From the NCBI GenBank assembly GCA_913061475.1, contig CAJXUN010000029.1, positions 1 through 59,708 on the forward strand: a stretch of DNA of 59,708 bases, read 5' to 3'. The translations under genes were made by a program, and so were the position numbers. The notes under the pieces are model-generated. The model saw only the letters and a list, made by a program, of their open reading frames with translations, made no database searches and was not told the origin of the DNA. This stretch comes from an uncultured Colwellia sp. GTDB taxonomy: Bacteria > Pseudomonadota > Gammaproteobacteria > Enterobacterales > Alteromonadaceae. Positions 3,741 through 24,352 of the stretch are shown here, in pieces; position 1 is the stretch's first letter; every line of letters starts with the position of its first letter.

Positions 3741-4217
3741 ATGAGCAAACCACAACGCGATATCACTTTACGATTTTTAGCTGAACCTCAGGATGTAAAT
3801 TTTGGTGGCAAAGTTCATGGTGGTGCGGTAATGAAATGGATTGATTTAGCTGCGTACGCTTGCGCGGCTGGCTGGAGTGGTCGCTATTGTGTTACAGCTT
3901 ACGCCGGTGGTATTCGTTTTATTGCCCCGATCCACGTAGGTAGCTTAGTTGAGGTTGAGGCAAAAGTTATTTATACCGGTAACTCTTCAATGCACATTGC
4001 ATTAGAAGTTAATGCCTGTGATCCTAAATCGTTAAACCGCCGACTAACAACACATTGCATTGTTATCATGGTGGCGGTTGACCAAAATGGTCAGTCAGAA
4101 ACTATTCCAAAATGGATTCCGGAGAGTGAAGAAGATATCAAACAGCATGAAAGCGCGAAAAAGTTAATGGAAATGCGCAAACAAATCGGCGAAGAGATGC
4201 AAATTTTTGTAGAATAG
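3741..4217 (+). CDS. Acyl-CoA thioesterase, hotdog fold (YciA-like)
   Basis: This 158-residue cytoplasmic protein is of the 4HBT hotdog family and is predicted to hydrolyse acyl-CoA thioesters to free acid and CoA. The core signature is N-F-G-G-K-V-H-G-G-A-V-M-K-W-I-D (residues about 20-35), where the Gly-rich HGG turn and the Asp on the hotdog helix form the active-site region. The C-terminal 40 residues are charged and helical. AGGAAG precedes the ATG. It leads a run of three rightward genes (thioesterase, DUF2750 protein, helicase) with short gaps that may be one transcript. Confidence 0.85.
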   Translation: MSKPQRDITLRFLAEPQDVNFGGKVHGGAVMKWIDLAAYACAAGWSGRYCVTAYAGGIRFIAPIHVGSLVEVEAKVIYTGNSSMHIALEVNACDPKSLNRRLTTHCIVIMVAVDQNGQSETIPKWIPESEEDIKQHESAKKLMEMRKQIGEEMQIFVE

Positions 4218-4253
4218 TATTCGATTTATCAATAAACATCATCAGGAAATCAC

Positions 4254-4643
4254 GTGTTAGAGCCAGAAAAAATTAAACAATTATTGCAGATGGACGATGC
4301 ACAACGAGCCGTTTACTTCGTCAAAGAGGCTGTAAGCCAGAATGAACTGTGGATTTTAACCGATGAACACGGTTGTGTGATGCTAAACACAGAAGAAGAA
4401 GACTGTGTGCCGGTTTGGCCGAACAAAGAGTTTGCCCAAGCTTGGGTGACTGATGAATGGCAAAATTGCCAACCAGAAGCCATCTCCTTAAATAAATGGT
4501 TTAGTCGTTGGACCCACGGCCTAGCAGATGATGAACTCGCTATTGTGGTATTTCCAAGTCAGGATGATCAAGGGCTTGTTTATTACCCAGACGAACTTGA
4601 GCATGAACTCAAACAACACCAGCATTCGATCAATAAGCGATAG
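4254..4643 (+). CDS. DUF2750 domain protein
   Basis: This 129-residue acidic protein resembles the DUF2750 family. It has the ELWIL.DE.G....N.EE...PVWP..E.A..W pattern in the first half and a DD.L...VFP......V..PDEL.. pattern in the second. Function is unknown. The start is GTG at 4254, set by AGGA at 4243-4246. Its stop lies only 6 bases before the ATG of the next helicase, so the two are probably co-translated from one message. No catalytic motif is visible. Confidence 0.75.
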   Translation: MLEPEKIKQLLQMDDAQRAVYFVKEAVSQNELWILTDEHGCVMLNTEEEDCVPVWPNKEFAQAWVTDEWQNCQPEAISLNKWFSRWTHGLADDELAIVVFPSQDDQGLVYYPDELEHELKQHQHSINKR

Positions 4644-4649
4644 ATAATC

Positions 4650-5900
4650 ATGAGTTTTTCTTCATTAGCATTAGACAAGTCACTTACTGATGCCGTTAAA
4701 GCCTTGGGCTATGAGCAACCAACACCTATTCAGCAACAAGCCATTCCTGCGATTTTAGCTAATAAAGATATTATGGCTGGAGCACAAACCGGTACCGGTA
4801 AAACCGCGGCTTTTGCTTTACCTATACTTCAGCGTTTGGGTGAAAATATTCCAGCCCAAAGACCCATTCGAGCCTTAGTATTAACACCAACCCGTGAACT
4901 TGCTCAGCAAGTGTATAAAAGCTTTGTTAGCTATGCAGAAAATACCGAGCTTAATATTGCTGTTGCCTATGGCGGAGTCAGTATTAAGCCGCAAATTGAA
5001 GCGATAGAGAAAGGTGCTGATGTATTAATTGCTACGCCCGGGCGATTATTGGATCATATTATTAATGGCAGTGTATTGTTGATTCATCTTGAAACCATTG
5101 TTTTTGATGAAGCTGATCGAATGTTAGATATGGGCTTTAAGGATGAGATCGATCGCATTCTTAATAGGTTACCACCAAAGCGCCAGACCTTACTGTTTTC
5201 AGCCACGTTCGATGATGCTATTTTTAAACTCAGTAAAACCTTACTTAACGACCCTGAGCTTATTGAAGTCAGCGAGCGTAATACTGCTGCCGCGCAAGTG
5301 GAACAAATTGTTTATACCGTTGATAGTGACCGAAAACGTGAATTAACTTCATTCTTGATTGGCTCGAAAAACTGGCAACAGGTGCTTATTTTTACCCGTA
5401 CCAAACAAGGGGCAGATGAGCTTGCGAAAGAAATGTCAAAAGATGGCATTAAAACCCAATCTATACATGGTGATAAATCACAAGGGGCGCGAGATAAAGC
5501 CTTAGCTGAGTTTAAAGCTGGAAAAACGCGAGCGTTAGTGGCTACTGATGTTGCAGCTCGTGGCATCGATATTCATGATCTACGTTATGTGATTAATTAT
5601 GAATTGCCTTATATTGCTGAAGATTACATTCATCGTATTGGCCGCACAGGCCGTGCGGGTAATGAAGGTTTGGCTATCTCATTAATGAGTCCGTCTGAAG
5701 CCTGGTTACTAGAAGCAGTAGAAAAAGTTTTAGATAGCCGCTTAATGCAGCAATGGTTGCCGGGCTATGAGCCTGATTTAACTAAAACCGACGCACCGGC
5801 ACGTAAAAACACCCTAGGGCGACAAAAAAAGCATGGTCGTCAACAAGCCTTTGGTGATAAGAATAAAACTAAGCCTAATAATAAACATCGTCGCCGTTAA
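4650..5900 (+). CDS. DEAD-box ATP-dependent RNA helicase, RhlE type (copy 2)
   Basis: This 416-residue helicase has the complete motif set: Q motif [51 protein letters not shown] and [10 protein letters not shown]. The C-terminal tail (about 370-416) is strongly basic (ends HRRR) and suits RNA contact. It is clearly related to the helicase at 1762 along its whole core but differs in the tail. It follows the DUF2750 gene by 6 bases. A strong symmetrical hairpin ends the transcript. Confidence 0.93.
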   Translation: MSFSSLALDKSLTDAVKALGYEQPTPIQQQAIPAILANKDIMAGAQTGTGKTAAFALPILQRLGENIPAQRPIRALVLTPTRELAQQVYKSFVSYAENTELNIAVAYGGVSIKPQIEAIEKGADVLIATPGRLLDHIINGSVLLIHLETIVFDEADRMLDMGFKDEIDRILNRLPPKRQTLLFSATFDDAIFKLSKTLLNDPELIEVSERNTAAAQVEQIVYTVDSDRKRELTSFLIGSKNWQQVLIFTRTKQGADELAKEMSKDGIKTQSIHGDKSQGARDKALAEFKAGKTRALVATDVAARGIDIHDLRYVINYELPYIAEDYIHRIGRTGRAGNEGLAISLMSPSEAWLLEAVEKVLDSRLMQQWLPGYEPDLTKTDAPARKNTLGRQKKHGRQQAFGDKNKTKPNNKHRRR

Positions 5901-5934
5901 TCTAAGTGTAGTAAAACTAAATGTTGTAAAAAAT

Positions 5935-5970
5935 GAAGAATGCCGAACTTGTTAGAGTTCGGCATTCTTC
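5935..5970. terminator. Bidirectional terminator hairpin
   Basis: A perfect 14-bp inverted repeat (GAAGAATGCCGAAC at 5935-5948 and its complement at 5957-5970) surrounds an 8-base loop. The arms begin and end A-rich or T-rich, so it can work on both strands, ending the helicase transcript and the leftward dsbA-like transcript that converge here. Confidence 0.85.
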
Positions 5971-6053
5971 TTTATAACATAAGCAGATACCTAGGCTTAT
6001 ATGGCTGATATTAGAATAATAACGCTTGTGCAGTTGCCGTAACGTTAAAAACC

Positions 6054-6701
6054 TTAAAGGCTAAATAAATAGGCGACTAGTTCATTGTATTCGGCAAAGA
6101 AGTTATTACGGTCGAGTGATTTACTATCAATTAAATATTTACCATTTACGACCATAGCCGGGACGCTAGTGAGGTAACGCTTTTCAGATAAATCATCTTG
6201 TATTTTCTTTTCTTTTTTTGCCTGACCGATCACCGAAAAGTTTTTCATGCCTTGATCAAACTTTTTGCCATCACCACCACTAAGTACAAAAATATTACGA
6301 ATGTCTTTTTCATCAGTAATTGTTGCTTTATCGGTTTGTAGATATTTGAAGACAGCAGAAGAAAATTGTTTATCAATAGCAGTTTTCTCTGCAATAATTA
6401 ATGCCTTACTCAACATAAATTGAATATCTGCTGATGTGTGTCCCATAAAATCGACATGCACTTTGTTAAACTTAGCTTGCTTAGGCATAACCTTTTTGAA
6501 ACCATCAAGGTAAGGTTCATAAGCGCGACAAGTTGGGCAGTAGTAAGAAAAGTATTCCGTCAATTCAGGTGCTGAGGTTTTCTTTTCTGCAACTACACTG
6601 TAGTGCTTTCCTTCTTTGAAAGTTGTCGAAAAACTACTAAAACTGACACTCAGTAATAGCGTAATTGTGAATGTAGCAATGAGATTTATGACTTTTTTCA
6701 T
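6054..6701 (-). CDS. dsbA: DsbA-type periplasmic thiol oxidoreductase with CPTC active site
   Basis: This 215-residue exported thioredoxin-fold protein should introduce disulfides into periplasmic proteins. It has an N-terminal signal peptide (about 1-25), the redox motif C55-P-T-C58 within YFSYYCPTCRAYEP, and the cis-proline loop TSVP181. The spacing and length (E. coli DsbA is 208 residues) fit DsbA. The active site reads CPTC where classical DsbA has CPHC. The His-to-Thr change normally alters the redox potential, so this may be a weaker oxidant or a specialised paralogue. No dsbB is nearby. It is a single leftward gene. Confidence 0.82.
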   Translation of the reverse strand: MKKVINLIATFTITLLLSVSFSSFSTTFKEGKHYSVVAEKKTSAPELTEYFSYYCPTCRAYEPYLDGFKKVMPKQAKFNKVHVDFMGHTSADIQFMLSKALIIAEKTAIDKQFSSAVFKYLQTDKATITDEKDIRNIFVLSGGDGKKFDQGMKNFSVIGQAKKEKKIQDDLSEKRYLTSVPAMVVNGKYLIDSKSLDRNNFFAEYNELVAYLFSL

Positions 6702-7132
6702 ACTTATCCTTAATAAATAGCTTTAATGAAATGCTATAGGCTTTTTCTAAGAGGTGAATAATACGAAAAAGTAGACCAATATTAATCCTAAATGTTCATT
6801 AGTAAATGTAAAAATTAATGTCAGTAGGCGGTTATTGTTAGCGCATAAAATGAAAGTTTTCTTTGAGAATATCGTATGCGATTTTAAAACTTTACGGGAG
6901 CTTTAAAAGTAAAGTAGCGAGAAAGGTACTTAGAGCCTAAGGTATGGAAAGCATGCATAATAATAACATTAGGCATACTCTAACTTTGTGTATTATTAAT
7001 AAGAATCGAGTTGTCTAATCTGAACTAATATCATTCAATGTACTTCAAGCATATTATCTATTGTGCAAATATCAGCGGAACTGTATAAATTGTAACGATT
7101 ATTAAATAAACTAAATTATTATCGGTAATTAT
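6702..7132. other. Intergenic region, no gene seen
   Basis: These 431 AT-rich bases lie between the dsbA-like gene and the diguanylate cyclase, both leftward. They should hold the dsbA promoter (near 6702-6800) and the end of the cyclase transcript. No convincing ORF, RNA or repeat was seen. Confidence 0.5.
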
Positions 7133-8869
7133 TTATGGCGCTATAGTAGGGTTTGGTTCTTCACTAAAAATACGATAAGTGTTTCTACCTGCCTCTTTTG
7201 CTTCATATAAAGCTTTATCGGCATTATTCATTAATAAGTCATAATCAAAGTTAGCATCGTATGGATGAAGAGCGACACCAATGCTAACTTCAATTGATAA
7301 TTGATCCTTACCATAAGATATCGATGTAGGGATTAAGGCTGCTATTCTCTTCAGCGTTTTCTTAATAGCTTCAATACTATCTGGACCGTAAAGTATTACC
7401 GAAAATTCATCTCCACCTAGTCGTGCGACTAAATCAGTTTCTCTAAATATTATCAATAAGTTACTTGCAACAGCCTTTAAAATTAAATCACCAGCGGCAT
7501 GGCCATATTCGTCATTGATTGGTTTGAATTTATCAAGGTCAAGCGACAATAAAGCGATCAATTTTTTTTCACGTTTAGCTAAATTCACCATTTCATGTAG
7601 CGAATCCTCAAATTTATTTCTATTAGCTAAGCCAGTTAGAGGATCTGTTAGGGCTAAACGAGTGATTTTTTCTTCTGCTAATTGCCGCTTAATTTCATTA
7701 TCTTTAAATATTTTTAACGACTTATGCATACGTCCTAACTCTGTATGGTCATCCTCGAAGCGCACTTTAATCGGATCAATTTCTACATCAAGTTCACCTT
7801 GAGACATTTTACGCATGACACGTGAGAGGTTTTTTACCGGTCTGATGACTTTAGATGAAAATACCCAAAAAATAAATAATCCAATGAGTATAGTTAAGCT
7901 GATAACAATAAAAGCATTAAGTTGTTCTTTTTTATAGACATCTTGTATTAAAAAACCCAATAATTCAGACTTGCTTTCTATTTGATAAATAATATCTTGA
8001 TCAATCGTTCTTAAGCCTCTCAAGGCATACGCATCACTTATTTTTACTTTTGCATCAATAGCTTCTGGTATTAGTTCCTGTTCAATCCCCTTATCGATGA
8101 TATCAATATTATTTTTATACTTAGTTAATACAGAAATAATATCCTCCAGCGCGGTTTTTTCACTAACAGTAGGTTTTAGCTGTTTATACTCATCAACTAA
8201 ATTCTCAATATTTGCTATCGACCTCAAAGCATTGGCTTTATATATAACGTCTTGACGTAATATATAATTTTTAAAATTGTGGATCATTCCGCCATAACCA
8301 AATTCTGCATATAGGGCAGAGGCTAATACAGGCTTATTTTTTCTATTCGCAAAATAGGGATGTTCAGCAATAATTTCGTCTTTTAATAAAGATAAACCAC
8401 GTAATGCTAAGTCGTCATTTATTTTTACCAGATCATCGATTTCTGTGCTGGTCTTTTTTGCCGTTATACTGCCTCTAATCTTCAAAATTCCCTTTTGGTA
8501 ATTATCGAGCATAGTTTGAATATCAGTTAATACTAATTTTTCCGTTGATGAAGTGCTCAAGGCAAGATACTGTTTAACTATTCCCTGCGCCGCTCCCATT
8601 GAGCGTTCAACTTTCAAAAAATGCTCAAAATCTTTCCGTAATATATAATTTTTAAAATTGTGGATCATGCCACCATAACCCAACACTTGGTATAAGGAGT
8701 TAACTAAGCGTGCTTTTTCATTATTTTGTGATCTAAATGCACTCCAAGATTTTTGAATTTCATTTACTTGTTGTGTTACGCGTATTGATGAAAAACCATG
8801 AATGAAAGCAATCGCACTTAGTGCAATTAAAATAATAAATGAAAGTTTACGAAGTGATAGATGATCCAT
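7133..8869 (-). CDS. Membrane diguanylate cyclase with duplicated periplasmic sensor domain, HAMP and GGDEF
   Basis: This 578-residue inner-membrane protein is predicted to make cyclic di-GMP from two GTP. A TM segment (about 8-28) is followed by a periplasmic region (about 30-315), a second TM (about 318-338), a HAMP-like stretch (RPVKNLSRVMRKMSQGELD) and a GGDEF domain. GGDEF is intact at residues 485-489 and an RxxD inhibitory site (R476..D479) is present. The periplasmic part is a tandem duplication: the motif GYGGMIHNFKNYILR occurs exactly at 64-78 and again at 191-205, each followed by a helical segment and an ALRGL element. The His and Lys of the motif are candidate ligand contacts. 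The ligand is unknown. Confidence 0.9.
   Translation of the reverse strand: MDHLSLRKLSFIILIALSAIAFIHGFSSIRVTQQVNEIQKSWSAFRSQNNEKARLVNSLYQVLGYGGMIHNFKNYILRKDFEHFLKVERSMGAAQGIVKQYLALSTSSTEKLVLTDIQTMLDNYQKGILKIRGSITAKKTSTEIDDLVKINDDLALRGLSLLKDEIIAEHPYFANRKNKPVLASALYAEFGYGGMIHNFKNYILRQDVIYKANALRSIANIENLVDEYKQLKPTVSEKTALEDIISVLTKYKNNIDIIDKGIEQELIPEAIDAKVKISDAYALRGLRTIDQDIIYQIESKSELLGFLIQDVYKKEQLNAFIVISLTILIGLFIFWVFSSKVIRPVKNLSRVMRKMSQGELDVEIDPIKVRFEDDHTELGRMHKSLKIFKDNEIKRQLAEEKITRLALTDPLTGLANRNKFEDSLHEMVNLAKREKKLIALLSLDLDKFKPINDEYGHAAGDLILKAVASNLLIIFRETDLVARLGGDEFSVILYGPDSIEAIKKTLKRIAALIPTSISYGKDQLSIEVSIGVALHPYDANFDYDLLMNNADKALYEAKEAGRNTYRIFSEEPNPTIAP
8256..8299. repeat. Direct repeat copy A inside the diguanylate cyclase gene
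   Basis: This 44-base segment matches 8637-8680 in 42 positions, with the first 32 bases identical. It encodes the core of the second GYGGMIHNFKNYILR motif. The copies are 381 bases (127 codons) apart. Confidence 0.93.
8637..8680. repeat. Direct repeat copy B inside the diguanylate cyclase gene
   Basis: This is the partner of the repeat at 8256-8299, encoding the core of the first GYGGMIHNFKNYILR motif of the duplicated sensor region. Identity includes the third codon positions. Confidence 0.93.
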
Positions 8870-17299: not shown

Positions 17300-19246
17300 T
17301 TGAAATTATATATCGCCGAAAAACCCAGTTTAGGCAGAGCAATTGCTGCCGCATTGCCGAAGCCACAAAAAAATCATCAAGGTTATATTGCACTGGCTAA
17401 TGGTGACGTCGTGAGTTGGTGTATCGGTCATATCCTTGAACAAGCTAATCCTGAAAATTACGATCCGGCCTTTAAAAAGTGGCAGATGGCGCATTTACCG
17501 ATTGTACCTGAACAATGGCAACTAAAACCTAAAGCTCAAACACGTGCACAACTTACCGTATTACGAAAACTGGTAAAGCAAGCCGATGAAATTATTCATG
17601 CCGGCGATCCTGATCGTGAAGGTCAATTACTGGTTGATGAAGTGATTGATTTTTTTAAAGTGCCCGCGAAGAAAAAGCAAAATATTAAACGTTTATTAAT
17701 TAGCGATTTAAATTTGCCAGCAGTGCAAAGGTCGTTAGCTAATTTACAAAGTAATCAATTGTTTATGCCATTGTCTATTTCAGCCTTAGCACGTTCAAGA
17801 GCTGATTGGTTATACGGTATTAATCTCACTCGCGCTTATACCTTACAAGGGCAAAAAGCCGGATTTAATAGTGTGCTATCGGTCGGTCGTGTGCAAACGC
17901 CGGTACTAGGTTTAGTGGTGCGTCGCCAACAAGAAATAGCTAACTTTGTTGCGAAAAATTTTTATGAGGTGCATGCGCATTTACAAAGTAATAACCAAGA
18001 ACAGTTTATTGCTAAATGGCAGCCGAGCGAGGCATGTCAGCCTCATATGGATGATGAAGGTCGGGTGCTTAATCGTGCGTTAGCTGAGAATGTTGTCAGT
18101 CGTATTGAAAATCAAACGGCTGAAATCAGCTCGGTCGATGAGCAAAAAAAGCAACAAGCGGCTCCCTTACCTTATAGCCTTTCGGCTTTGCAAATCGATG
18201 CCGCAAAAATATATTCCTTGAACGCTAAGTTGGTATTGGATGTGTGTCAGGCGTTATATGAAAAACATAAACTGATCACTTATCCTCGCTCAGATTGTCG
18301 CTATTTACCAACAGAACACCACGCACAGGCTAAGGGCATAATTACTATGTTAGCTGGCGCCAACGAAAACTATGCGGCGTTTGCTCAAGGCGCCAATAGC
18401 TCGCTAAAAAGTAAAGCGTGGAATAATGCCAAAGTTACTGCTCATCATGCGATTATTCCAACAGAAAAATCGGCGGCGAAGTTGTCGTTAAATCCATTTG
18501 AAAAAAAGATTTATTTTCTGATTGTTCGGCAGTACTTGGCGCAATTTTATCCTGCCTATCAATATAATCAAACTCGGGTAGAGGTATTGATAGCGGGTGG
18601 AAAATTTTTAGCCAATGCTAAAAGCCCGATAGCGCAAGGTTGGAAGCTGTTATTTCAGCGCACTAAAAATAAGCCTGACAATTCGATTCAAGATAATGAC
18701 GACAAGCTAAGCCATCAGCTATTACCTAAGCTAATCGCCGGTGAGAAAATACACTGTAATCATGGCGAATTAATGAGTCGCATGACACAAGCGCCTAAGC
18801 ATTTTACCGATGCAAGTTTATTAAGTGCTATGACTGGCATTGCTCGATTTGTTAGTGATAGCGAGATAAAAAAACTGTTAAGAGAAAATGACGGTTTAGG
18901 CACCGAAGCTACACGTGCGGGGATTATCGATTTACTCTTTAAACGTGATTACTTACAACGACAAGGCAAGAGCATTCATGCCACAGTAGTAGGTACCTCG
19001 CTAATCAATGCCCTACCTATTACCGCTACTATGCCCGACATGACAGCACATTGGGAAGCGACACTGACCAATATTAGTGAGAAAAAGAGCCGTTACGAGC
19101 ATTTAATTAACCCACTAACCGCGACTATAACTGAGATGATTAAGCAGTCAGAGCAACAATCTTTTGCAGAACTGCCTAAGGTAGCATTTAAGCGTAAAGC
19201 CAAAACTAAAAAGCCCTTTGCTCGGAAAAAAACCACGATAAAATAA
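17300..19246 (+). CDS. topB: DNA topoisomerase III
   Basis: This 648-residue type IA topoisomerase passes single strands and decatenates replication intermediates. It has a Toprim domain (KLYIAEKPSLGRAI at the start, then DPDREGQLLVDEV near residue 98) and the active-site Tyr in LITYPRSDCRYLP. The conserved LSVGRVQTPVLGLVVRRQ and GLGTEATRAGIIDLL segments follow. The tail is Lys-rich. Length is close to E. coli TopB (653). The start is TTG at 17300, forced by alignment with the family N-terminus; no strong ribosome site is seen. A LexA-like box lies just upstream. Confidence 0.94.
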   Translation: MKLYIAEKPSLGRAIAAALPKPQKNHQGYIALANGDVVSWCIGHILEQANPENYDPAFKKWQMAHLPIVPEQWQLKPKAQTRAQLTVLRKLVKQADEIIHAGDPDREGQLLVDEVIDFFKVPAKKKQNIKRLLISDLNLPAVQRSLANLQSNQLFMPLSISALARSRADWLYGINLTRAYTLQGQKAGFNSVLSVGRVQTPVLGLVVRRQQEIANFVAKNFYEVHAHLQSNNQEQFIAKWQPSEACQPHMDDEGRVLNRALAENVVSRIENQTAEISSVDEQKKQQAAPLPYSLSALQIDAAKIYSLNAKLVLDVCQALYEKHKLITYPRSDCRYLPTEHHAQAKGIITMLAGANENYAAFAQGANSSLKSKAWNNAKVTAHHAIIPTEKSAAKLSLNPFEKKIYFLIVRQYLAQFYPAYQYNQTRVEVLIAGGKFLANAKSPIAQGWKLLFQRTKNKPDNSIQDNDDKLSHQLLPKLIAGEKIHCNHGELMSRMTQAPKHFTDASLLSAMTGIARFVSDSEIKKLLRENDGLGTEATRAGIIDLLFKRDYLQRQGKSIHATVVGTSLINALPITATMPDMTAHWEATLTNISEKKSRYEHLINPLTATITEMIKQSEQQSFAELPKVAFKRKAKTKKPFARKKTTIK

Positions 19247-19446
19247 TGCCGCTTTTTATGCTAAATATAATTAAAAAAAATACTTTAGCTAACTTACTGT
19301 TAGTAGTGATTAATTCCCTGTTTTATTTACTTACCATTTGGTCAACGGTTAAAAAACCTTCATTTTTCTTTAACAATAATTTAACATTCATACTTCAGAA
19401 TGCCGCTAGGTAATTTTGCATAATAATAATATTGGGAGTGTGTGTG

Positions 19447-22400
19447 GTGAGTATTTTTTTGCGGAAAAATTTCAGCAGTATTAAGTCAAGTCTAGCTAGT
19501 AAGGCGGTGTTTACTATTTTTACCGGTAGCGTGCTAGCTTCATCAATGGCTAATGCGGATGAAATATGGAGTGAAAACTTCGATGCTGTAAGCATCGATG
19601 GTAAAGGAGCAGTTTTCGATCAAATAGACCTCAGTAATGTAACCAAGTGGTCAATTGATGTAAGTTCAGCGCAACTGACCGCAACATCAGATTGGTTTAA
19701 AGTTAAAAGCGGTAAATTTGAAGGACGAGATTTAGATGGCACAGCCATTTGGCAGTCAGAAGCTATCGACATTAGCAGCTTTTCCGATATAAATTTATCG
19801 GTAAATGCCGCTGAAAATGGCAGTCATGAAGGTACTGATTTTCTTGATGTAGCTTATGCTATTGATGGTAGCGCATTTATTACCATCGAGAATTGGCAAG
19901 GTAAGGGCAGTGCGTCAAATACCTTAGTTGATGATTTTACTAGTGAAACAGTTACCGCAGCTATTGCCGCAGGTAATTCGCTCGTTATTCGTATTAGTAT
20001 GAAAAACAATGCCGGTTCTGAATACATCACTTTTGACAATGTTCTCGTCACAGGTAATAACGGTGGTACTGAGCCACCGGTTGATCCGCCTATTGACCCT
20101 CCTATTGATCCACCAGTAGAGCCGCCTGTGGGCGATACCATTACTGGAGCTTGTTTCAATTGTCCTGATTTAACCAAAGTGGCCATGGCCAGCGATTTCG
20201 ATGACAGTATTTATTATGCCGATGTCAATGCCGCTTTAGCCAACCAAGCGACAGCAGCTAACTTACGTAGTGCAATTAACGGCGCAATTAGCATTAACCA
20301 TAACGTGCTGACTTACTCAGAAGTTTGGACTGCACTAACGCAAACAGATGAAGACCCGCTCAACAGTGATAATGTTATTTTATTGTACCGAGGCCTTTCA
20401 TTAGCGAAATTCTCAAACGGTAGTGGTACGCAGTCTTCGAATCCAGATAACTGGAATCGTGAGCATGTTTGGGCAAAAAGCCACGGCTTTCCAAGTTCAA
20501 GTGCTTCAGCATATACCGATATACATCACTTAAGACCTACTGATATTTCAGTTAATTCATCGCGTGGTAATTTAGATTTTGACTACAGCGATAATGCCTT
20601 ATCAGAAGCGCCGCAAAATCGTGTTGATGGTAACTCGTTTGAGCCGCGTGATGCGGTTAAAGGTGATGTTGCTCGTATGACCTTCTATATGGACGTGCGT
20701 TATGAAGGTGCTGATCCACAAACGCCAGATTTAACCTTAGTTGATATGCTAACTAGCACAGGCCAGCCTCGCTTAGGTAAACTATGTGCTTTACTTGCTT
20801 GGCACGTTGCCGACCCTGTTGACAGTTACGAGCAAGAGCGCAACAACCGTATTTATGAATTTCAAGGTAACCGTAACCCGTTTATAGATCATCCTGAATG
20901 GGTAACACAAGTATTTACTGATGCCTGTGACGGAACAACACCACCGGATCCGGTTGACCCGCCTGTAGATCCCATTGACCCAGTTGACCCACCGGTTGAT
21001 CCGGTCGACCCTACACCGCCATCAAGCAGTTCAGCGTTATTTATTTCAGAATATATTGAAGGCAGCAGCTACAACAAAGCGGTTGAAATATTCAACCCAA
21101 CCAATACCACAGTATCGTTATCAGGTTATCAGCTTAAACTTTATGGTAATGGCAATACCGAGCCAACCGTAACGACGGATTTATCCGGTGAAATATTAGC
21201 TAATGACGTTGTCGTGCTTGGCTCAACGCAAATAACTGGAGATAGTGCGTTAAAACCATTGGTAGACATGGCTGTTAGCGCCGTTAATTTCAATGGCGAT
21301 GACTATTTTGAATTAGTAAAAGATGGCGAATTAGTTGATTCTTTTGGCGTTAAAGGCGAAAGAACTAGTTGGGCAGCTAATACTACTTTAGTGAGAAAGC
21401 CTACGGTAGCTAGTGGTGATAAAAATGTTAGCGATGCTTTCGTTGTTGCTAATGAGTGGGATAGCTATCCGTCAAATACTTTTAGCTTTTTAGGTTCGCA
21501 CAGCTTTGATGGCACCGTAGTTGACCCAGGTCCTGATCCTGAACCAACATTAATCGGCCAGTGTGGTGATAGTGCTGAGCTTATTAGTGCTATTCAAGGT
21601 AGCCGTGATGCTTCGCCATTCGTTGGCGAAAATAAAATTGTTGAAGGCGTTGTAACTTCGGTTGTCGACAGTTTGTCAGGTTTCTTCATTCAGGAAGAAG
21701 CGGCTGATACAGATGCCAATCCAGCAACATCTGAAGCTATTTTTGTTTATTTAAATGGTAAAGGCGCGGCGCCAACTGAAGGCACAAGGGTACGTGCTAA
21801 AGGTGACGTAAAAGAGTTTTATAATCGCACACAATTATCACTTAGTGAAAGTGTTGTTGAGTGTGGTGCAGGCGAAGCCATTGCTGCAATCAATGTCACT
21901 ATGCCAGTGACTAGTTTAAATGACTGGGAAGCATTAGAGGGGATGAAAGTCGCTTTTGAACAGACGTTGCAAGTATCTGATAGTTATGATCTCGCGCAGT
22001 ATGGTCAGTTAACCTTGTCATATGGTCGATTAATGATCCCAACCAATGTGTACACGCCTGGCTCAAGCCAAGCAATTGCATTGGCTGATAGAAACTCACG
22101 AAATGCGATTGTGATTGATGATAAAAATAACAGTCAGTACCCAGAGTTTATTCCTTTTCCAAATGAAGGTTTAAGCTATAACAGTACCGTACGTTTAGGT
22201 GATAGCGTTGAAAACGTAAGCGGTATTTTAGATTACAGTTACAGTGCCTATCGTATTTTACCCATTACAATGCCAACATTTAGCACGACAAATATCCGTG
22301 AGTCATCGCCGACTATTGGCTCGACAAGCGAAATCAAAGTTGCGAGTTTTAACGTCCTAAATTACTTTAATGGTGATGGTCAAGGTGGTGGTTTTCCAAC

Positions 22401-23469
22401 CTCGCGTGGCGCAGATTCATTTGAAGAGTTTACGCGTCAAAGCAATAAAGTGGCTGCAGCGATTGCCGAAATTAACGCTGATGTTGTTGGCTTAATGGAA
22501 ATCGAGAATGATGGTTATGATGAGCTTTCTGCGATTGCTGATTTAACTGACAAGTTAAACAGTCTAATGGGTGCTAATACCTACCAATATATCAGCATTG
22601 ATGCTACGCAATTAGGCGGCGACGCTATTGCTGTCGGTCTACTTTATAAACCTAGTACAGTAACGCTTGTTGGCAATACTATGACCACGAATGAGGCGCC
22701 ATTTGACTTTGGTAATCGTCAACCGTTAGTACAGTCGTTTAGCTCTAATGCTAGTGGTGAAAACTTTACGGTAGCGGTTAACCATTTTAAATCAAAAGGC
22801 AGTTGTAGTAGCGCTTCTGGGAACAATGCTGACCAAGGCGATGGTCAAGCTTGTTGGAATGAGCTAAGAACACAAGCGGCAACAAAACTCGTTACTTGGT
22901 TGGCTTCAAAACCCACCAGCATTGAAACCGACCACATCTTAATTATTGGTGACTTAAATGCTTATGGTAAAGAAGATCCTATCGAAACTATTACGGCTAG
23001 CGGTTACCGTAATTTAATTGCTGAAAAAGTAGGGCGTGGTGCTTACTCTTATGGATTCGGTGGTGAAGTTGGCTATCTAGACCATATGTTAGCAACTAAT
23101 GAACTGACTGCGTTAGTTGATGCTGTTGATGAATGGCATATCAATGCCGATGAACCCCGTGCTTTTGATTACAACATGGAGAAAAAGTCGGCAGGGCAGT
23201 TAACGTCTTACTATGGTAGCGATGCTTATCGTGCTTCGGACCATGACCCAGTTATTGTTTCGTTTACTTTTGCTGTTGACGAAGTATTAATCGGTGATTT
23301 TGATAACGATGCTGATATTGATATGGCTGATATTAGACTATTTATGAACAGATTAAGAGCCGGCGAGAGTTTTGATTTAAGTTATGACTTTAGTGGTGAT
23401 GGGATCGTCAATGCGCTTGATGCGCGTTTACTTATACAACGTTGTACTCGCTACCGTTGTGCACTGTAA
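19447..23469 (+). CDS. Secreted double nuclease: endonuclease I plus ExeM/NucH domain, ending in a dockerin
   Basis: This is a 1340-residue exported protein. In order: signal peptide (about 1-33, ending SMANA), beta-sandwich (about 35-205), a Pro-Asp linker, endonuclease I/NucM domain (about 235-490; NREHVWAKSHGFP and DIHHLRPTD), a second Pro-Asp linker and a lamin-tail domain (about 529-690). An OB-fold-like region (about 700-830) follows, then an exonuclease/endonuclease/phosphatase domain (about 960-1273; LMEIEN, GDLNAYGKEDP, SDHDPVIV). Last is a dockerin (about 1280-1340) with two calcium loops, DNDADIDMAD and DFSGDGIVNALD. I chose GTG 19447, preceded by GGAG at 19435; the frame is open to TTG 19432. 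Its likely role is degrading extracellular DNA for nutrients or biofilm turnover. The dockerin replaces the GlyGly-CTERM typical of ExeM. The next gene encodes a cohesin-like protein. Confidence 0.9.
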   Translation: MSIFLRKNFSSIKSSLASKAVFTIFTGSVLASSMANADEIWSENFDAVSIDGKGAVFDQIDLSNVTKWSIDVSSAQLTATSDWFKVKSGKFEGRDLDGTAIWQSEAIDISSFSDINLSVNAAENGSHEGTDFLDVAYAIDGSAFITIENWQGKGSASNTLVDDFTSETVTAAIAAGNSLVIRISMKNNAGSEYITFDNVLVTGNNGGTEPPVDPPIDPPIDPPVEPPVGDTITGACFNCPDLTKVAMASDFDDSIYYADVNAALANQATAANLRSAINGAISINHNVLTYSEVWTALTQTDEDPLNSDNVILLYRGLSLAKFSNGSGTQSSNPDNWNREHVWAKSHGFPSSSASAYTDIHHLRPTDISVNSSRGNLDFDYSDNALSEAPQNRVDGNSFEPRDAVKGDVARMTFYMDVRYEGADPQTPDLTLVDMLTSTGQPRLGKLCALLAWHVADPVDSYEQERNNRIYEFQGNRNPFIDHPEWVTQVFTDACDGTTPPDPVDPPVDPIDPVDPPVDPVDPTPPSSSSALFISEYIEGSSYNKAVEIFNPTNTTVSLSGYQLKLYGNGNTEPTVTTDLSGEILANDVVVLGSTQITGDSALKPLVDMAVSAVNFNGDDYFELVKDGELVDSFGVKGERTSWAANTTLVRKPTVASGDKNVSDAFVVANEWDSYPSNTFSFLGSHSFDGTVVDPGPDPEPTLIGQCGDSAELISAIQGSRDASPFVGENKIVEGVVTSVVDSLSGFFIQEEAADTDANPATSEAIFVYLNGKGAAPTEGTRVRAKGDVKEFYNRTQLSLSESVVECGAGEAIAAINVTMPVTSLNDWEALEGMKVAFEQTLQVSDSYDLAQYGQLTLSYGRLMIPTNVYTPGSSQAIALADRNSRNAIVIDDKNNSQYPEFIPFPNEGLSYNSTVRLGDSVENVSGILDYSYSAYRILPITMPTFSTTNIRESSPTIGSTSEIKVASFNVLNYFNGDGQGGGFPTSRGADSFEEFTRQSNKVAAAIAEINADVVGLMEIENDGYDELSAIADLTDKLNSLMGANTYQYISIDATQLGGDAIAVGLLYKPSTVTLVGNTMTTNEAPFDFGNRQPLVQSFSSNASGENFTVAVNHFKSKGSCSSASGNNADQGDGQACWNELRTQAATKLVTWLASKPTSIETDHILIIGDLNAYGKEDPIETITASGYRNLIAEKVGRGAYSYGFGGEVGYLDHMLATNELTALVDAVDEWHINADEPRAFDYNMEKKSAGQLTSYYGSDAYRASDHDPVIVSFTFAVDEVLIGDFDNDADIDMADIRLFMNRLRAGESFDLSYDFSGDGIVNALDARLLIQRCTRYRCAL
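20071..20130 (+). repeat. Pro-Asp/Glu linker repeat 1 in the nuclease gene
   Basis: In-frame short repeats encode a P-P-[VI]-[DE] linker between the N-terminal beta-sandwich and the endonuclease I domain. Repeated CCNCC(T/A) units make it prone to slippage. Confidence 0.8.
20941..21020 (+). repeat. Pro-Asp linker repeat 2 in the nuclease gene
   Basis: In-frame repeats of DPVDPPVDP type form the second flexible linker, between endonuclease I and the lamin-tail domain. Confidence 0.8.
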
Positions 23470-23501
23470 TTGCAAAATTAATTATAAAAACAGGAAAAAA
23501 A

Positions 23502-24104
23502 ATGAAAAAATTATTGATACTTTTAACGCTATGGTGTGCAACTATTACAGCGAACGCTGCGTTGATAACGATTGATGTTGAAGACAAAGCTTATGACATT
23601 AATGACACACTCACTGCTGATATATACATTTCAGAGCTTGAAAATAACTTTGGAGCGCAAGAATTAATTTCATTGTTTTCATTTGACTTGATCTTTAATG
23701 AGAATTTGTTAGATGTTGATAACGTCATTTTTGGTGACAAACTTGATGTTGATAGCTTCGGAGACCCAAGTGTTAGAACAGATACCTTTACTGCTGGCCA
23801 ACCTTTCACATTAGGTGAAGCTGCATCAGCATTTTTTACTGATTTAGAGTTTGCTCAAATTGGGTTCACTAACTTTTTACTTGTTTCTGTTGATTTTACC
23901 GTAAAAGGTGCTGGTTTAGCTGAATTTTCATTGAACAATGCTGAGGTTTATGACGACTTTACTTTTCTGCTAAGTTCGATTTCAACGCAAGGCGATCGTG
24001 CACAACTTGGTAGTCAAGTTAGTGTGCCAGAGCCAAGTTCAATGGCGATTTTTGCACTAGCATTGTTAATGATAATGCGTTTAACAAGAAAAGCACAACA
24101 CTAA
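23502..24104 (+). CDS. Cohesin-like protein with PEP-CTERM anchor
   Basis: This 200-residue secreted protein has a signal peptide (about 1-18, ending TANA). It then has a cohesin-like beta-sandwich (about 20-155): D.LTADIYISEL, then LFSFDLIFNENLLDVDNVIFG, and FLLVSVDFTVKGAGLAEFSL, the order of strands seen in cohesins. The C-terminus is a PEP-CTERM signal (VPEPS, a hydrophobic helix, then a basic end), which an exosortase would process for surface or exopolysaccharide attachment. I chose ATG 23502 with AGGA upstream; the frame is open to 23442. It lies 32 bases after the dockerin-bearing nuclease, so the two are probably one operon and a matched pair. Confidence 0.82.
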   Translation: MKKLLILLTLWCATITANAALITIDVEDKAYDINDTLTADIYISELENNFGAQELISLFSFDLIFNENLLDVDNVIFGDKLDVDSFGDPSVRTDTFTAGQPFTLGEAASAFFTDLEFAQIGFTNFLLVSVDFTVKGAGLAEFSLNNAEVYDDFTFLLSSISTQGDRAQLGSQVSVPEPSSMAIFALALLMIMRLTRKAQH

Positions 24105-24120
24105 CGCGTGTAACTGAATT

Positions 24121-24170
24121 ATACCTACTAGCCTGAAGCTTTATCTTAGCATTCACTAGTAGGTATATCT
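24121..24170 (+). terminator. Probable terminator after the cohesin gene
   Basis: An 11-bp stem (ATACCTACTAG at 24121-24131 with its complement at 24156-24166) is followed by a short T-rich run. The 24-base loop is long for an intrinsic terminator. Confidence 0.55.
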
Positions 24171-24352
24171 TTTTGAAAAATAAATATTTTACCTACCGCA
24201 ATCCATAACTTTAGTTCTTTTAAAAATATAGGTAAGCTAATAGTAATTATAATAAGCTGATTTCCGCTCAGTGAAGCTTAATAGCTTTGATGTAGTTTTT
24301 TAAAATTTAATTGGTTAATCGCTTAATGTGTCTTACGAATAAGGAAATCAGC

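Follow-up and report, generated by a model that had tools for sequence, protein, structure and literature searches.

Two neighboring genes of an uncultured Colwellia sp. probably constitute a docking cassette, in which a secreted nuclease would be held near the cell by its dockerin, a cohesin, and a PEP-CTERM anchor. The genes lie in a 59,708-nucleotide stretch of DNA (contig CAJXUN010000029.1 of assembly GCA_913061475.1), the whole of which we call the window. Both domains and the sorting tail are present in the encoded proteins, and an exosortase gene is present in the genome. Further, the adjacency of the two genes is conserved in related bacteria, the cargo is swapped among them, and dockerin and cohesin co-vary. 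A first-pass annotation had interpreted the pair as a possible surface-tethered DNA-degrading complex. Our analysis supports this interpretation overall, and the checks that the annotation had proposed, co-folding apart, turned out in its favor. The framing around DNA was too narrow, because the nuclease is one of many cargos, and the term “complex” says too much, because the anchor carries one cohesin.

The nuclease gene extends from position 19447 (GTG) to 23469 (stop) on the + strand, as assigned from the open reading frame (ORF) list, Pfam, and NCBIfam; an alternative in-frame TTG start is located at 19432. Its 1340-residue product comprises a predicted signal peptide (by eye), an Endonuclease I domain (Endonuclease_1, 144.9 bits), a lamin-tail domain (LTD, 52.8), an ExeM/NucH endonuclease-exonuclease-phosphatase region (Exo_endo_phos, 38.3), and a C-terminal dockerin (Dockerin_1, 28.9), with each of the four parts above its Pfam or NCBIfam cut-off. 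The NCBIfam model of the ExeM/NucH family (NF033681) matches at 648.9 (cut-off 300). Against the full-length ExeM-GG architecture (GlyGly-CTERM, NF033680), the protein reaches 445.6 bits, below the cut-off of 1300, and its C-terminus is a dockerin instead. The motifs E-I-E-N, G-D-x-N-A-Y, and D-H-D-P, which we take to be catalytic, are invariant in a 14-row nuclease alignment that includes the window protein.

The dockerin is of type I and has two calcium loops, as the first-pass annotation had described. It spans positions 23293 to 23442 (+ strand; residues 1283-1332), exceeds the PF00404 cut-off of 22.9 bits, and scores 34 bits (E = 1.6e-7) in a search of the genome. Five acidic calcium-loop positions (D12, D20, D23, D42, and D53 of a 68-residue piece) are invariant in a 19-row dockerin alignment. 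Right after the domain comes the tail CTRYRC (23443-23460, + strand), an example of the C-x4-C motif (CTRxRC) that ends this dockerin subfamily; each cysteine column is C in 120 of 131 dockerins. Such an end is not known from clostridial dockerins.

The second gene, at 23502 (ATG) to 24104 on the + strand, encodes a 200-residue protein with a predicted signal peptide (approximately residues 1-19, by eye), a cohesin (approximately 17-172), and a PEP-CTERM motif (174-196), as judged from the family profile, the fold, and the PEP-CTERM models. The annotated tail is borne out by two of these models (PF07589, 21.6 bits, cut-off 20.7; TIGR02595, 16.2, cut-off 16). Single-sequence Pfam and NCBIfam scans of the small protein did not find a cohesin, and a search of the whole genome with PF00963 gave zero matches at E 10. 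The protein is too divergent for detection from its own sequence, a difficulty that an alignment of its relatives solved. When the resulting family profile was compared with the Protein Data Bank, cohesins came first (best 1.9e-16), and PF00963 matches 18 of the 31 family members at E up to 1 (best 3.2e-6). The small protein has the cohesin beta-sandwich fold, with structural matches that span residues 16-173, and its closest solved structures are cohesins, among them 6kgc, 2vo8, and 3l8q. Family profile and fold thus identify the small protein as a cohesin, as had been proposed, though its own sequence does not. The anchor has room for one cohesin only and is not a scaffoldin with several; PF00963, which is too insensitive in this setting, gave no match to a scaffoldin elsewhere in the genome.

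Conservation of the pair, which the first-pass annotation had named as a check on its idea, extends far beyond the genus. The small protein was found in 10 of the 60 genomes of a first sample, own genome included, and in several genera a dockerin-tailed ExeM is directly followed by such a protein. We then sampled 246 genomes of the family; searches with the small-protein profile and with the Pfam dockerin each gave at least 150 places, and our counts cover the places listed. Among these, 73 of the 150 small-protein places lie 39-310 bases downstream, on the same strand, of one of the 150 Pfam dockerins. We then read the gene upstream of each listed place, using a dockerin model derived from the subfamily itself (E under 0.01); in 133 of the 150, the upstream same-strand gene carried a dockerin, and in 126 the domain lay no more than 60 residues from the end of that gene's product. 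Without the 16 rows that made up the query profile (15 of them with a dockerin), 118 of 134 listed places keep the upstream dockerin. Of the 318 other ORFs in loci L204-L336, five have a dockerin domain; three of these start directly downstream of a cohesin and carry the dockerin N-terminally. The inverted order, in which the cohesin precedes a protein whose mature N-terminus is a dockerin, was seen in L253, L260, L327, and L074, the last with two further cases by eye, one with a PF00404 match below the cut-off. With inverted cases counted as adjacent, 12 of the 150 listed places have no visible neighboring dockerin. Outside the family, the subfamily is sparse; at E 0.001, its profile has matches, mostly weak ones, in 40 of the 369 genomes sampled from the class.

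The tail of ExeM is swapped between loci. We picked 80 loci by their similarity to the dockerin-tailed ExeM, with titles that include Colwellia, Thalassotalea, Alteromonas, Rheinheimera, Paraglaciecola, and a Cellvibrio assembly; 77 could be classified, the nuclease ORF being shadowed by a longer reverse ORF in L168, L171, and L191. A cohesin follows in 32 of 42 loci with a dockerin-tailed ExeM and in 0 of 35 with an ExeM that has no dockerin, by a cohesin model from overlapping species and with relatedness uncorrected. The other ExeM tails include GlyGly-like and PPC- or PKD-like ends (by eye, not by profile). In a Salinisphaera locus (L196), the gene of a dockerin-less ExeM shares a few bases with that of a protein (6752-7384) that has a VPAPG tail resembling a sorting signal and no match to the cohesin model at E 0.01.

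The cargo is exchanged as well. The 133 listed pairs carry 60 ExeM-like proteins and 73 proteins in 16 other clusters or singletons. Among the dockerin-bearing representatives scanned, there are matches to porphyranase domains, collagenase M9, peptidase M43, BNR_4, CBM6, IgGFc-binding, F5/8, PASTA, or thrombospondin-3 domains, as well as a metallophosphatase, a glucuronyl esterase, and a second Exo_endo_phos protein; some representatives have no catalytic Pfam match. In the porphyranase cluster, seven of eight members have the dockerin, and all four of those scanned contain porphyranase domains. The Colwellia genome itself has two dockerins (subfamily profile, E 0.01; Pfam alone finds one), each directly upstream of its own cohesin. 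The second cassette (L291, G000:C33:330-7223) consists of a cargo gene (3822-5561) and a cohesin-like gene (5592-6206). The cargo is a 579-residue secreted protein with a dockerin end and no Pfam or NCBIfam match, from a cluster of 11 members, its own included; the next gene encodes a cohesin-like PEP-CTERM protein.

Dockerins also change with their neighbors. We compared distances over 131 of the 133 pairs (two have no called cohesin ORF) with 999 permutations; the short dockerin makes for noisy distances. Dockerin and cohesin distances correlate at r = 0.56 (0/999 permutations as high). Among the 60 pairs with an ExeM, the coefficients are 0.63 for dockerin and cohesin, 0.47 for dockerin and nuclease, and 0.71 for cohesin and nuclease. 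Once the nuclease domain is controlled for, dockerin and cohesin retain a partial correlation of 0.48 (0/999); once the cohesin is controlled for, that between the dockerin and the nuclease domain of its own protein is 0.04. Therefore, the dockerin follows the cohesin of its neighbor and, beyond that, not its own protein. Pairs with different cargos still correlate (r = 0.28, 0/999). For the 121 pairs in clusters with at least three members, the most similar dockerin from another genome comes with the same cargo in 114 cases, and the most similar cohesin in 106; the lineages are thus mostly cargo-specific.

In general, proteins with a PEP-CTERM tail are sorted to the surface or matrix by the exosortase system. 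The first-pass annotation had looked to an exosortase elsewhere in the genome, and an XrtA-like locus is indeed there. It holds the only exosortase match of the genome (PF09721, 137.8 bits, over the cut-off), for which the best NCBIfam model is XrtA (165.8 bits, under the cut-off of 208). Next to it are genes for a PEP-CTERM protein and for two proteins that exceed their NCBIfam cut-offs, PrsT and an XrtA-system deacetylase. In the family sample, an exosortase is present in 108 of 113 genomes with a Pfam dockerin versus 71 of 133 without one. It is also present in 88 of 89 genomes with a listed pair, a figure biased by the PEP-CTERM part of the query profile. Pfam PEP-CTERM is found in 23 of the 31 small-protein family members at E up to 1, and all but two of the 131 called partners fit a tail pattern that is very permissive.

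From these features, we infer binding, tail processing, a surface location, and a physiological role as follows. The nuclease would be exported via its signal peptide, and its C-terminal dockerin would bind, in a calcium-dependent manner, the cohesin of the neighboring small protein. The PEP-CTERM tail, processed by the XrtA-like exosortase, would fasten the cohesin to the cell surface or keep it in the exopolysaccharide matrix. The nuclease, thus retained, could release the products of extracellular DNA (nucleotides and phosphate) close to the cell, or could trim matrix DNA locally. Elsewhere in the family, the same cassette, with its own dockerin-cohesin pair, would carry other secreted proteins, many of them hydrolases. 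A more general proposal, to which we give somewhat less than an even chance, is that marine Gammaproteobacteria have a two-component surface-sorting system. In it, each large secreted hydrolase would have its own dockerin subtype (with the C-x4-C clasp) and its own exosortase-sorted, single-cohesin anchor, in orthogonal pairs of one cargo and one anchor. Such a system would be a third route, beside a PEP-CTERM or a GlyGly-CTERM fused directly to the enzyme, and would amount to a natural library of private cohesin-dockerin pairs.

Several observations weigh against the docking cassette, and other explanations draw on some of them. One genome (G010; a single contig, 99% complete) has two pairs and no exosortase by PF09721 or TIGR02602, which would fit a model in which dockerin and cohesin bind each other, the PEP-CTERM tail is cut off, and a soluble complex is released, with the cohesin as a stabilizer or chaperone of the nuclease. 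In both of these cassettes (L068 and L097), the cargo is an ExeM-like nuclease. The concentration of exosortases in dockerin-positive genomes and the wide retention of the tail speak against a soluble complex, and we regard it as unlikely. Other exceptions concern the neighborhood. Adjacent cohesins are missing in 10 of the 42 loci with a dockerin-tailed ExeM, and for 17 of the 150 listed small-protein relatives, the upstream same-strand gene encodes no dockerin. One of these 17, in L298, adjoins a porphyranase-like protein that has no dockerin. Further, genome G024 has four dockerin-tailed proteins (L075, L084, L085, and L086) with no cohesin neighbor. Such cases fit a scheme in which the nuclease dockerin binds another cohesin in trans and the neighboring cohesin another dockerin protein, adjacency reflecting shared regulation only. 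The two dockerins of the Colwellia genome, each next to a cohesin of its own, and the co-variation with the adjacent cohesin beyond the nuclease domain are contrary to this scheme, and we consider it rather improbable. G024 also has a lone cohesin-like PEP-CTERM gene elsewhere in its genome (L294), and there one anchor is possibly shared in trans by the four dockerin proteins.

The remaining points concern the partners and their contact. The small protein of the window, taken alone, has no match to the Pfam cohesin. When the pair was folded as a single read-through chain, the cohesin was good, but the predicted template modeling score of the whole chain was only 0.64 and no predicted aligned error was given; therefore, no dockerin-cohesin interface can be claimed. 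Dockerin-like EF-hand repeats occur without cohesins, and this fact and the lack of a predicted interface would suit a dockerin that is nothing but a calcium-stabilized end cap beside an unrelated, chance PEP-CTERM neighbor. We give this notion almost no credence: the neighbor is a cohesin by profile and fold, the pair recurs in 133 of 150 listed cases over many cargo families, and none of the 35 dockerin-less ExeM loci has the partner. As for the co-variation, it is the cohesin, more than the dockerin, that follows the nuclease domain (r = 0.71; partial correlation 0.60, given the dockerin), and common descent therefore accounts for much of what is seen; the permutations and the Mantel and Fisher figures ignore the tree and the relatedness among genomes. 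Mutual information between dockerin and cohesin residues is 0.096 on average versus 0.062 in 20 shuffles, and the top columns miss the known recognition positions. With these points included, we still favor the docking cassette as the probable reading.

The arrangement of the genes is that of the first-pass annotation: their coordinates, their order, and the 32-base spacing agree with the ORF list. The gap (23470-23501, + strand) contains AGGA, which by eye resembles a ribosome site, and a pattern scan listed no terminator-like or promoter-like site on the + strand there. Directly 3' of the anchor gene, a strong stem-loop (24120-24167) precedes TCTTTTT (together 24120-24175, + strand). Its minimum free energy is -21.4 kcal/mol (z = -4.1), equalled by 0 of 200 shuffles; it is absent from the pattern scan, where loops are limited to 3-8. 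It is likely the transcription terminator of a two-gene unit. Because the stem-loop and T run follow the anchor gene and the gap has no such site, the two genes are probably one transcription unit that ends there. In some species of the genus, the pair adjoins a topoisomerase III-like gene, and in others peroxiredoxin- or HAD-like genes (L065-L070; window positions 17300-24104; names by eye). The flanking genes thus differ between species, and the pair stays together while its neighborhood changes.

If our reading is true, the breakdown of cellulose by anaerobes is not the main use of cohesin-dockerin docking. Marine bacteria would have an enzyme-display cassette for nucleases, collagenases, porphyranases, and other hydrolases, which would explain how what large secreted enzymes release stays near these cells and would link the exosortase to nutrient capture. 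It would also supply many new cohesin-dockerin pairs for protein engineering. Further, the cassette makes the function of some PEP-CTERM anchors directly testable.

The cellulosomes of Clostridium, Acetivibrio, and Ruminococcus share with this system an enzyme-borne type I dockerin and a secreted cohesin protein, and cohesins are the nearest folds. The differences here are a one-cohesin anchor, with no multi-cohesin scaffoldin beside its gene in the ORF list, a nuclease as cargo, a PEP-CTERM tail, and a dockerin subfamily that ends in C-x4-C. Non-cellulosomal cohesins and dockerins are known, namely the Archaeoglobus fulgidus cohesin 2xdh, glycoside hydrolase modules of Clostridium perfringens, and modules in ANME archaea. 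In the accessible text of a review of the latter, the modules are offered only as a contact hypothesis, and a fixed enzyme-anchor gene pair is not described there. That review was the only literature found to join dockerins with exosortases. None was found to join PEP-CTERM with cohesin or dockerin, in a search that misses most subscription papers, and parts may be noted elsewhere.

ExeM of Shewanella oneidensis and Xds of Vibrio cholerae belong to the same nuclease family (NF033681). S. oneidensis ExeM was reported from the cytoplasmic membrane fraction and not from supernatants, and normal biofilm formation depends on it (PMC6085458). That protein has its own C-terminal, GlyGly-type membrane tail; here, a dockerin takes its place, and the proposed anchor is a separate protein. 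The PEP-CTERM motif and the XrtA-like locus are those of PEP-CTERM/exosortase sorting, with the difference that a cohesin adaptor, rather than the enzyme itself, bears the sorting tag. The modules and sorting signals are known, whereas the fixed enzyme-plus-anchor cassette, with its swapped cargos and co-varying pairs, appears to be new. That the pair recurs across the family with many different secreted cargos suggests a hitherto undescribed means of keeping enzymes on the cell surface.
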